Below are positions 6,001-9,097 of a stretch of DNA of 64,000 nt, in pieces. Within the stretch, counting starts at the first letter, position 1, and each line of letters opens with the position of its first letter. The translations under genes and the position numbers were made by a program. This DNA comes from Desulforamulus hydrothermalis Lam5 = DSM 18033 (GTDB taxonomy: Bacteria > Bacillota > Desulfotomaculia > Desulfotomaculales > Desulfotomaculaceae), in assembly GCF_000315365.1 (NCBI RefSeq), contig NZ_CAOS01000013.1, positions 62,001 to 126,000 of the forward strand. Reading direction: 5' to 3'. The notes below the pieces were generated by a model, which did not search any database, had not been told where the DNA came from, and was given only the letters and a program-made list of their open reading frames with translations.

Positions 6001-6441
6001 ATGGACAGTTTAAAGTCAAAGGTGGCTTATTTGCAGGGGTTGGCAGACGGTATGGACTTACCGGCGGAAAGCAAAGAAGGTCGTTTGTTAAACGGCATTA
6101 TTGATGTCTTGGAGGATTTCGCTGACCATCTGGAGGGTTTGGCAGAGGCCCAGGAACAGCTGGAGGACTATGTGGAGACCATTGATGAGGATCTTTACAC
6201 GCTGGAGGAGGATTTAACCCAGAGCCAGGATGACGATTATGTGGAAGTTGATTGTCCCGGCTGCGGTGAAACCGTCATGTTCGATGCGGGTATTCTGGAA
6301 GACGATGATGTCGTTGAAGTCACCTGCCCCAACTGTGATGAAGTAGTGTTTGTTAACGACGACACCTATGCCAGCGCTGATGAAGCTGAACTGCTGGAGG
6401 GCCGGGAGGCAAACGGCAACGGCAAACAGCGGCGGGAATAA
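6001..6441 (+). CDS. CD1247-domain zinc-ribbon protein of unknown function
   Basis: This 146-residue acidic protein has an N-terminal helical part (residues 1-75, with L-x-G-L-A-x-G-M typical of the CD1247 N-terminal domain). A compact zinc ribbon follows, made of C-P-x-C-G-E and C-P-N-C-D-E knuckles about 25 residues apart. The C-terminus is low-complexity and charged. It starts at ATG behind AAAGGGGG. Such proteins are widespread in Clostridia, usually next to efp, but no activity is known to me. Two CxxC pairs suggest one bound zinc and a nucleic-acid or protein-binding role (inference). Confidence 0.75.
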   Translation: MDSLKSKVAYLQGLADGMDLPAESKEGRLLNGIIDVLEDFADHLEGLAEAQEQLEDYVETIDEDLYTLEEDLTQSQDDDYVEVDCPGCGETVMFDAGILEDDDVVEVTCPNCDEVVFVNDDTYASADEAELLEGREANGNGKQRRE

Positions 6442-6459
6442 AAAAGTACAAGGATGCCC

Positions 6460-6488
6460 TTGCCAATCCGGGCAAGATTGTATAAAAT
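6460..6488 (+). promoter_or_regulatory. Sigma-A type promoter of the T-box/aroF operon
   Basis: TTGCCA (6460-6465) and TAAAAT (6483-6488) are separated by 17 bases. They lie about 30 bases upstream of the T-box stem I. The -35 also falls in a short CTTGCC/GGCAAG hairpin that may end the upstream gene. Confidence 0.5.
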
Positions 6489-6521
6489 AAATAACAAATT
6501 TTATACCCTAATGTCCATGAA

Positions 6522-6786
6522 GGAGAAAAGTAGGTCAGACCCAGTCTCACAGGGAGGAAACGTCAGCGACTGAGAGCGTTTCCAGTTATGGCTGATTGAA
6601 GTTCTCTCCGGAGATGCCGACTGAACTGACAGTAGGTTAGGCCGTAGTTCCCACGTTACAGGGAAGGGGGTATCGGACATTGTTCCCGTACTCTGCACAG
6701 AGGGGGTCTCGTTGAACGGGATCAACTAGGGTGGTAACGCGGTAGCCTTGAGCTTCTCGTCCCTAAAGGGATGAGAAGCTTTTTTA
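6522..6786 (+). promoter_or_regulatory. T-box leader (probably tRNA-Phe specific) with transcription attenuator
   Basis: T-box RNAs sense uncharged tRNA and let transcription continue when the amino acid is short. Stem I is closed by GGAGA (6522-6526) and TCTCC (6605-6609), with the conserved AGTA at 6529-6532. The triplet just before the closing strand, at the specifier position, is TTC (6602-6604), a Phe codon, which suits a DAHP synthase-prephenate dehydratase operon. The T-box acceptor-binding sequence AGGGTGGTAACGCGG is at 6728-6742; TGGT there would pair with the ACCA end of tRNA. The terminator stem AGCTTCTCGTCCC/GGGATGAGAAGCT (6751-6780) plus T-run follows. The specifier assignment is an inference from alignment of the stem. 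Confidence 0.85.
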
Positions 6787-6787
6787 T

Positions 6788-6923
6788 TGGCCTCCCTGTG
6801 TTTGTACGGGCAACCCGGTCCTGTATCCTGCTGAGGGGGCCTTTGGGCCAATAAGGGTGGTACCGCGGAAGTCTATGGCTTTCGTCCCTTAGTAGATTTA
6901 GCAATCTAAATTTTACGGAGGGA
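6788..6923 (+). promoter_or_regulatory. Second, stem-I-less T-box module overlapping the aroF ribosome site
   Basis: A second consensus acceptor-binding sequence, AAGGGTGGTACCGCGG, lies at 6853-6868, only 67 bases after the first terminator. This leaves no room for a full stem I. Its partner CGTCCCTT (6883-6890) can pair either with AAGGG (6853-6857) or with AGGGA (6919-6923), which is part of the GGAGGG ribosome site of aroF. The second pairing encloses a TAGATT/AATCTA hairpin and lacks a terminator T-run. The module therefore looks like a translation sequestrator rather than a terminator. Confidence 0.55.
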
Positions 6924-6929
6924 TGATCA

Positions 6930-7958
6930 GTGGTAGTAGTAATGCAGCCTCAGGCAACTCAACAACATATTGCGGCTGTGGATGACCGGTTAACGGCGGA
7001 AGGTTTCCGCACTCAAGTAATTTACGGCGAAAAAAGAACTGTGGTAGCTGCTGTGGGTGACCGGCGGGTTATGGAAACCCTGGGGTTAGAAGCCCTGCCC
7101 GGTGTGGAAAAGGTGGTTCCCATTATGAAGCCCTTTAAACTGGCCAGCCGGGAAGTAAAAGAAGAAAACACCGTCATCCGGGTAAAAGGAGCTTCTGTTG
7201 GCGGTTCCGAACTGGCAGTTATTGCCGGACCCTGTGCGGTGGAAAGCCGGGAACAATTACTGGCAGCTGCCTGGGCAGTGCGAGCGGCCGGCGCCAAGTT
7301 TTTAAGGGGAGGGGCCTTCAAACCCCGCACCTCGCCTTACAGTTTCCAGGGCATGGAAGAACAGGGGTTAAAACTGCTGGCTGAAGCATCCGAACTGACC
7401 GGACTGGTGACGGTCAGTGAAGTAATAGATGAAGAAAGCCTGGCTATGGCCCTTGATTATATTGATATACTGCAAATCGGGGCCCGCAATATGCAAAACT
7501 TCCGCCTGTTAAAGGCAGCGGGCAAAAGCGGCAAACCCATCTTGTTGAAAAGGGGTCTTTCGGCCACAGTGGAAGAATGGCTGATGGCAGCCGAATATAT
7601 AATGTCGGAAGGCAACCAGCAGGTTATTCTGTGCGAACGGGGCATTCGCACCTTTGAAACATATACCCGCAATACCCTGGATTTAAGCGCTGTGCCGCTG
7701 GTAATGGGTTTGAGCCACCTGCCGGTGGTGGTGGATCCCAGCCACGCCACCGGCAAGCGAGATTTGGTGCTGCCCATGGCCATGGCGGCTGTGGCGGCCG
7801 GTGCCGGCGGCCTGCTGGTGGAGATGCATCCGGAACCTGCCCGGGCTTTATGCGACGGCCAGCAATCCCTGTCACCCCGGGAATTTGCCCAACTCATGAC
7901 AAAGTTAAAGCCGGTGGCCAAGGCCGTTGGCAAATCCCTCTGGGGGGTGGGGGCATGA
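6930..7958 (+). CDS. aroF: 3-deoxy-7-phosphoheptulonate (DAHP) synthase, type I-beta
   Basis: This enzyme condenses phosphoenolpyruvate and erythrose 4-phosphate to DAHP, the committed shikimate step. The 342 residues contain an N-terminal ferredoxin-like (ACT-like) regulatory domain (1-70), as in Thermotoga-type enzymes, and a TIM barrel with A-G-P-C-A-V-E, the K-F-L-R-G-G-A-F-K-P-R-T-S-P block, G-A-R-N-M-Q, L-K-R-G, and D-P-S-H-A-T-G-K-R near the C-terminus. GTG 6930 lies 6-8 bases after GGAGGG. Its stop overlaps the pheA start, so the two genes form one operon under the T-box leader. The regulatory domain predicts feedback inhibition by an aromatic amino acid. Confidence 0.96.
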   Translation: MVVVMQPQATQQHIAAVDDRLTAEGFRTQVIYGEKRTVVAAVGDRRVMETLGLEALPGVEKVVPIMKPFKLASREVKEENTVIRVKGASVGGSELAVIAGPCAVESREQLLAAAWAVRAAGAKFLRGGAFKPRTSPYSFQGMEEQGLKLLAEASELTGLVTVSEVIDEESLAMALDYIDILQIGARNMQNFRLLKAAGKSGKPILLKRGLSATVEEWLMAAEYIMSEGNQQVILCERGIRTFETYTRNTLDLSAVPLVMGLSHLPVVVDPSHATGKRDLVLPMAMAAVAAGAGGLLVEMHPEPARALCDGQQSLSPREFAQLMTKLKPVAKAVGKSLWGVGA

Positions 7959-9097
7959 ATAAGATTGCCTATCTGGGGCCCCGGGGCACCTTTTCCGAAC
8001 AGGCGGCGCAGGCTTATGCCGCCGCTCAGCCGGCGCAACCGGTTCCCTGTGCCACCTTGCAGGATGTTTGCCAGGGGGTGGCTGAGGGGCGCTATGCCCA
8101 GGGAGTGTTGCCCTTTGAAAACCTGCTGGAGGGCACGGTCAACCCGGTGCTGGATTTATTGTTGGAACTGCCCGGTTTGAAAATTCAGGCTGAGCTGCTG
8201 CTGCCGGTGGCCCATCATCTGCTGGTCAGGCCGGGCAGCAATTTTCGGGATATCCGGGCCGTGCTGTCCCATCCCCAGGCCCTGGCCCAGTGCCGTCGGT
8301 TTTTAGCCGATAACCTGCCGGCGGCCCAACTTATTCCGGTAGAAAGCACGGCCCGGGCGGCCGGCCAGGTGGCCGGCGGGGATAACACACTGGCGGCCGT
8401 TGCCACCGACGCCGCCGCCCAATATTACAACCTGACCGTCCTGGCCCCCAATATTCAAGACCGGTCTGATAACTGTACTCGTTTTGTGGTGGTGGGGCGG
8501 CAGGAGATACCCTGCCGGGGACCGTCCTGCAAGACCTCCCTGGCGGTATCCCTGCCTGACCGTCCCGGCTCCCTTTACAGTATTTTAAAAGAGTTTGCCT
8601 GGCGGGGTATTAACTTAACCCGCATTGAATCCCGCCCCGCCAGAACCAGCCTGGGTGAATATATCTTTTTAATAGAACTGGCAGGCCACCGGGCAGACCC
8701 GGACGTCAGCGAGGCCCTGGCCAATCTTGCTGACCAGGCCCGGCAAATCCGTTTGCTTGGCTGTTATCCGGCCTGCCGGCAGGAGCCCGGCGCGTCCCGG
8801 CAGCCGGCCGCAACCCTGGCAGAACTGCGGCAAGCCATTGATATTATTGACGGGCAGATTATTGCTTTACTGGGTCAAAGGGCCAGGCTGGTGACTGAGG
8901 TAGGCAAGCGAAAACCCGCCGGCGGGGCGGTGCGGGATCAGGCCAGAGAAGCCCAGGTACTGGCCCGGGTGCGCCGGTTGGCCCGGCACCATGGTTTTGC
9001 CGAACCCATGGCCGAAACCATTTACCGTACCCTGCTGGACCATTTTGTGGAATTGCAGACCGAACGGCAAACAGCCGGTTTGCCAAACCCCCATTAA
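7955..9097 (+). CDS. pheA: Prephenate dehydratase with C-terminal chorismate mutase
   Basis: This 380-residue fusion converts chorismate to prephenate and then to phenylpyruvate, the Phe branch. The prephenate dehydratase domain spans about 1-182, with the catalytic T-R-F at 175-177. An ACT domain (195-270) carries the Phe-binding E-S-R-P motif at 225-228. An AroQ-class chorismate mutase helix bundle follows at about 286-372 (L-R-x-x-I-D-x-I-D; Arg and Lys residues of the active site are present). In the well-known enterobacterial PheA the mutase is N-terminal, so the domain order is reversed here. ATG 7955 overlaps the aroF stop. The ACT domain predicts Phe feedback in addition to T-box control. 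Confidence 0.93.
   Translation: MNKIAYLGPRGTFSEQAAQAYAAAQPAQPVPCATLQDVCQGVAEGRYAQGVLPFENLLEGTVNPVLDLLLELPGLKIQAELLLPVAHHLLVRPGSNFRDIRAVLSHPQALAQCRRFLADNLPAAQLIPVESTARAAGQVAGGDNTLAAVATDAAAQYYNLTVLAPNIQDRSDNCTRFVVVGRQEIPCRGPSCKTSLAVSLPDRPGSLYSILKEFAWRGINLTRIESRPARTSLGEYIFLIELAGHRADPDVSEALANLADQARQIRLLGCYPACRQEPGASRQPAATLAELRQAIDIIDGQIIALLGQRARLVTEVGKRKPAGGAVRDQAREAQVLARVRRLARHHGFAEPMAETIYRTLLDHFVELQTERQTAGLPNPH

Follow-up and report, generated by a model that had tools for sequence, protein, structure and literature searches.

A phenylalanine T-box with one stem I and two discriminators upstream of aroF-pheA, and a covarying helix through which a single tRNA reader may serve both

The leader of aroF-pheA in the window (the whole 64,000-nucleotide stretch of Desulforamulus hydrothermalis DNA analyzed here) carries two sites that could bind the acceptor end of a tRNA but only one stem I, and so raises the question of how the second site is informed. 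A first-pass annotation, made from the sequence alone, had offered two answers: that one tRNA-reading domain is followed by a transcriptional and then a translational decision, or that the second site senses the acceptor end without reading a codon. We examined the leader, its relatives and the folds open to them, and found upstream of aroF-pheA one complete Phe T-box and then a stem-I-less discriminator. The linker strand between the two domains of the first module covaries with a second copy of its partner in the second.

Results

The leader begins with a probable promoter, TTGCCA-17-TAAAAT (6460-6488; all features are on the + strand unless stated), which is supported by a consensus match only (10/12) and was the sole promoter-like site in a consensus scan of 6400-6960; the same scan found no second promoter ahead of module 2. 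The T-box model RF00230 gave one full match at 6508-6767 (106.4 bits, E 1.7e-22, against a gathering score of 93 bits), comprising stem I, stem II, the stem IIA/B pseudoknot, stem III and antiterminator 1. The specifier codon is UUC (Phe; 6602-6604) by its place in the RF00230 alignment, and the genome has a tRNA-Phe(GAA). The pseudoknot element GUAGUUCCCACGUUACAGGGAA (6644-6665), with CGU/ACG and UUCCC/GGGAA assigned by reading the sequence, is kept in relatives. Stem III (6700-6724, boundaries approximate from the alignment) is followed by antiterminator 1 (6728-6764), with UGGU at 6732-6735 and helix A1 formed by AGGG/CCCU, and by terminator 1 (6750-6785), a 14-pair stem plus T-run with a core hairpin of -15.3 kcal/mol. 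CGUCCCU is common to terminator 1 and antiterminator 1, which makes them competing folds. Module 1 thus has the attributes required of a T-box: a score above gathering, a specifier with a matching tRNA, a UGGN sequence and a competing terminator. The genes behind the leader are aroF (6930-7958), encoding a DAHP synthase of the ferredoxin-like domain type (Pfam PF00793, PF18152), and pheA (7955-9097), encoding prephenate dehydratase, ACT and chorismate mutase domains (Pfam PF00800, PF01842, PF01817). The window holds two other structured RNAs, a full-length OLE RNA (RF01071; 28322-28930, 529.8 bits) and a TwoAYGGAY RNA (RF01731; 62020-62173, minus strand, 59.3 bits, above the gathering score).

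Scanning 6768-7000 with RF00230 returned a single partial match (6768-6892, 27.4 bits, E 1.4e-4) that falls short of the 93-bit gathering score and is concentrated in the stem III and antiterminator of the model. Counting RF00230 matches, a check that the first-pass annotation had proposed, therefore yields one full and one partial, sub-threshold match, and its description of two acceptor-end binding sites with one stem I holds. Stem III of module 2 (6833-6851), with GAGGG and AA flanks, fits RRRxG-stem III-AA, a described T-box discriminator motif (PMC7583486). The antiterminator or antisequestrator that follows (6853-6890; UGGU at 6858-6861) folds at -15.4 kcal/mol, and its core is kept in 7/7 members of the window's genus. 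Module 2 (6833-6890) accordingly combines the two elements of a discriminator, the RRRxG-stem III-AA motif and a UGGN antiterminator. The 3′ end of the genome's tRNA-Phe(GAA), ...GCACCA, i.e. ACCA, matches both UGGU bulges (6732-6735 and 6858-6861). A stem I with a specifier of its own is absent from module 2, as judged by RF00230 and by the interval from terminator 1 to stem III; only ∼70 nt lie between terminator 1 and the second antiterminator, which leaves no room for one.

We gathered aroF leaders from the order and beyond. Two cores were present in 66 leaders, of which 58 passed the filters for linker analysis, and at least 10 families are represented among the ∼58 aroF leaders that share the two-module layout. 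The second core, usually 104 to 154 nt after the first, was found in most aroF leaders examined, and module 2 is therefore not a chance motif; the idea would have been refuted had the second motif not been conserved in relatives, and it survived that test. Having a single stem I ahead of two discriminators, an arrangement that relatives conserve, the leader qualifies as a partially tandem T-box. The same genome carries another partially tandem Phe T-box (L292 / L191; G000:C8:218650-219650, minus strand), which precedes an AMP-binding, phenylacetate-CoA-ligase-like gene and then an ACT-domain gene and has terminators in both modules, as well as a fully tandem pair of complete T-boxes (L149; G000:C7:83426-84654).

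What differs within this group is the output of module 2. The Shine-Dalgarno sequence (SD) of aroF, GGAGGG (6917-6922), lies 7 nt before the GTG at 6930, a start position that agrees with relatives. CCCTT of module 2 had been noted to pair either with its own AAGGG (6853-6857 with 6886-6890) or with this ribosome site; both pairings were recovered, the latter longer than noted. It forms a sequestrator hairpin (6882-6926; -19.5 kcal/mol, z -4.5) from UCGUCCCU/AGGGAUGA plus an AU-rich upper stem. The strand UCGUCCCUU, half of antiterminator helix A1, hairpins onto the aroF SD in all seven genus leaders; the sequestrator and the antisequestrator share one strand and so cannot coexist. By folding, all six distinct genus sequences form the SD-covering hairpin (z -2.3 to -4.5), and five distinct genus sequences gave antisequestrator folds of -12.7 to -17.9 kcal/mol. 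The upper stem differs in sequence among the species of the genus and keeps its pairing (for example GUAGAUUU/AAAUUUAC, GUAAAUUU/AAAUUUAC and ACUUU/AAAGU). Each taken alone, the sequestrator is ∼4 kcal/mol more stable than the antisequestrator; in the whole window leader without tRNA the closed form is predicted at -121.2 and the open form at -113.2 kcal/mol, the closed being 8 kcal/mol more stable. Such a computed preference for the closed form in the absence of tRNA is as expected for a switch that uncharged tRNA would turn on.

The absence of a T-run after module 2, also part of the first-pass annotation, was borne out, terminator 1 being the only terminator that a + strand search of 6400-6960 found, at 6750-6781 by that search. 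A hidden terminator 3′ of module 2 was considered for the window and rejected, as the small AU hairpin there proved to be the upper portion of the sequestrator, with no U-run behind it. In leaders from outside the genus, module 2 is followed by a hairpin (-17 to -41 kcal/mol) and its U-rich tail in every one of the 58 that could be scored; one extra leader could not be. Terminator 2 is lacking in 7/7 members of the window's genus, which keep the antiterminator core and the SD-sequestrating hairpin. Since all other sampled families have terminators after module 2, its loss in the genus is the simpler history, and terminator 2 would be ancestral, an inference from the distribution of sequences without a tree. 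A few U's follow the sequestrator beside the start codon in 3/7 genus members (not in the window), which leaves some possibility that it acts there as a weak terminator. AGGGAU-type SDs are also present in outgroups that have terminators, and the lower part of the sequestrator is therefore partly a general trait of aroF SDs. In the window, module 2 meets the definition of a class II platform, in which an antisequestrator is exclusive with an SD-sequestrating hairpin and there is no terminator; that access to the SD depends on tRNA is inferred. The proposed order of one tRNA-reading domain, a transcriptional and then a translational decision is thus supported and agrees with all the computed results, with terminator 1 intact and terminator 2 absent across the genus. 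The second terminator of relatives and the linking helix described below were not available to the first-pass annotation.

How a reader in module 1 might reach module 2 is suggested by the linker that joins the IIA/B pseudoknot of module 1 to its stem III, where nearly all leaders carry GGUAUCGGA (P5) and UUCCCGUACY (P3′-1). P5 in the window is GGGUAUCGGAC (6668-6678), an instance of the near-invariant GGUAUCGGA, and P3′-1, its partner ahead of discriminator 1, is GUUCCCGUACUC (6682-6693); the local hairpin, with one C-C mismatch, is predicted in 58/58 leaders before module 2 is made. The 3′ strand of this helix, and it alone, is duplicated in module 2: P3′-2, GUCCUGUAUCC (6818-6828), conserved in position and sequence, stands ahead of discriminator 2, and in the window its spacing to the stem III motif is 4 to 5 nt, equal to that in module 1. 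A further strand, GUACGGGCAAC (6804-6814), can capture a freed P3′-1 and does so in the unconstrained minimum free energy fold of the window leader. Capture of P3′-1 by the strand upstream of P3′-2 was supported overall (-10.8 versus -9.05, sd 0.46), being strong in the window and variable among lineages. A local partner for P3′-2 within module 2 was also sought; it occurs occasionally (GUACGGG, in the window and G001), is not conserved and is usually weaker than P5.

Pairing of P3′-2 runs on past the core into the loop of the P5:P3′-1 hairpin, and this extension is lineage-specific: GGACUGUUG/CAAUAGUCC in G003, GGAUGAGUG/UACUCAUCC in G007, GGAAUAGAUU/AAUCUAUUCC in L126 and GGAAAGACAC/GUGUUUUUCC in L116. 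Most members of the window's genus have C in place of A after GGA and GUCC in place of UUCC in P3′-2, and their P3′-1 is still UUCC. Cognate P5:P3′-2 duplexes averaged -13.75 kcal/mol versus -11.16 kcal/mol (sd 0.22) for permuted ones, a value matched in 0/20,000 permutations, and with one leader per family 200/200 draws gave p < 1/2000. The extension past the invariant core averaged 2.86 bp versus 1.00 (sd 0.13) in cross-family swaps, and the fraction of paired cells was 0.85 in the correct register versus 0.23 to 0.53 when the strands were slid. Because variation is confined to the extension, the invariant core hardly informs for or against pairing, and its invariance is also why swapped P3′-2 strands still pair fairly well (mean 6.3 versus 11.2 pairs).

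The P5:P3′-1 hairpin pattern occurs in 67/113 genomes of the class and, in a sample of the phylum, in 76/398; most of the loci that were read are Phe-type T-boxes, and a reversed control pattern gave few matches. The hairpin (GGUAUCGGA...CCCGUAC) is thus widespread in Phe T-boxes and is not shown by the RF00230 consensus. Single, non-tandem Phe T-boxes that carry it (L267-L274) have longer paired tops. In other Phe T-boxes of the genus (L283-L289 and L291), P3′-1 often continues as CCGGUAAAG, and terminator 1 is followed by a UUACCGG-like strand; judged by eye and without statistics, module 1 may therefore be closed off by a helix there.

We followed the predicted pairing in growing transcripts, using equilibrium secondary structure without tRNA or the IIA/B pseudoknot, which is not true co-transcriptional folding. 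For the window, P5:P3′-1 reached a probability of ∼0.88 before terminator 1 was made, and P5:P3′-2 reached ∼0.99 once P3′-2 was made, the terminator 1 hairpin being looped out; P5:P3′-2 remained at 0.8 to 0.99 in the full leader. P5:P3′-1 came first in 58/58 leaders and P5:P3′-2 then took over in 53/58. With antiterminator 2 present, P5:P3′-2 was no longer dominant in many outgroups (mean 6.4 pairs at the end), and in the genus member G011 it was gone from the final ensemble.

Discussion

The covariation of P5 with P3′-2 and the predicted shift of P5 from one partner to the other suggest that the one stem I-tRNA reader probably moves over and docks again on discriminator 2. We consider it likely that this partially tandem Phe T-box has a single stem I/II reader that acts on its two discriminators one after the other. 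The anatomy, its conservation, the covariation, the exclusive folds and the genus-wide absence of terminator 2 are observed; strand exchange in vivo, hand-over of the tRNA and actual control of aroF we infer without experiment.

In the mechanism that we propose, P5 would first pair with P3′-1 and tRNA-Phe would be docked on discriminator 1, where an uncharged tRNA would favor antiterminator 1 and let transcription go on, and a charged tRNA would allow terminator 1 to form. As module 2 emerges, P3′-2 could pair with the loop of the P5:P3′-1 hairpin and displace P3′-1, an invasion that would extrude the used module 1, terminator included, as a loop and leave the same reader docked on discriminator 2. 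In most relatives, discriminator 2 would then decide on transcription once more. Its decision in the window's genus would concern translation and could be taken anew for as long as the message lasts: with uncharged tRNA the antisequestrator would be held and the aroF ribosome site open, and with no uncharged tRNA UCGUCCCUU would pair with the ribosome site and close it. We lean, with little more than even confidence, toward the fuller form of this proposal, in which the sensor is handed between platforms by a toehold-type strand displacement, the used terminator module is looped out so that a contiguous T-box is rebuilt, and a single tRNA reading is used at transcription and then at translation for the life of the mRNA.

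The absence of a second stem I could also be taken to mean that module 2 is an independent acceptor-end sensor, with a second uncharged tRNA binding through UGGU, no codon read and only a local role for P3′-2. Its discriminator is complete, and the stem III-antiterminator domain is called the aminoacylation-sensing unit (PMC7583486). P3′-2, however, has no conserved partner in module 2 and yet covaries with P5 of module 1, and without codon reading any uncharged A73 tRNA could activate, a poor design for a Phe gene. We regard this reading as unlikely. The first-pass suggestion of acceptor sensing without codon reading loses ground for the same reason: the strand that docks the stem I/II domain on the discriminator has been copied into module 2, and the copy covaries with that domain.

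Other readings deny that module 2 of the genus is a switch. It might be a relic of the ancestral second terminator, its pairing with the SD being incidental, as the loss of the terminator's 3′ arm and the frequency of GGAGGGAU SDs among relatives that still have terminators would allow. Yet 7/7 genus members keep the T-box core, GGAGGGAU and the UUUCGUCCCUU strand while the spacer diverges, and both antisequestrator and sequestrator keep their pairing despite sequence change, so that we think a relic improbable. We give still less credence to the SD-covering hairpin being a constitutive translation damper, or a processing or stability element, with tRNA sensed by module 1 only. The greater stability of the sequestrator, by ∼4 kcal/mol in isolation and by 8 kcal/mol in the complete tRNA-free leader, would suit such an element, but there would then be no need to conserve the rival fold, an antisequestrator whose UGGU bulge and stem III flanks are intact.

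If the preferred reading of one reader shared by two discriminators is true, this leader would be a rare case in which two expression platforms, at two levels, are driven in series by the same riboswitch sensor. The covarying helix provides a concrete mechanism, testable by mutation, for a widespread set of Phe T-boxes, and the window's genus offers a natural case in which the second output has passed from transcription to translation with the sensor unchanged. We found no description of the shared docking strand, its covariation or the mixed transcription/translation output in the open literature; older T-box surveys lay outside the search, and an earlier description is not excluded. Within that limit, the shared docking strand P5, the P5:P3′-2 covariation and the mixed output appear to be new, and the partially tandem architecture was already known.

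The leader can be set against four kinds of T-box. Like the transcriptional T-boxes described by RF00230, module 1 has stem I with UUC, a IIA/B pseudoknot, stem III, a UGGU antiterminator and a terminator; unlike them, it is followed by a second, stem-I-less discriminator. Translational T-boxes, mostly actinobacterial and upstream of ileS, likewise oppose an antisequestrator to a sequestrator over the SD, but have a single platform and often a shortened stem I; in this leader, from a Bacillota lineage, the translational platform comes after a transcriptional T-box whose stem I is long. The fully tandem T-boxes of trp, ilv and thrS operons (PMC12452182) also make two serial decisions per leader; each of their units is described as complete, having a sensor and a regulatory domain to itself, and as acting on transcription, unlike the arrangement here. 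The closest likeness is to the partially tandem T-boxes, named in a 2020 review that called their mode of action unknown (PMC7583486), which share with this leader one stem I and two discriminators.
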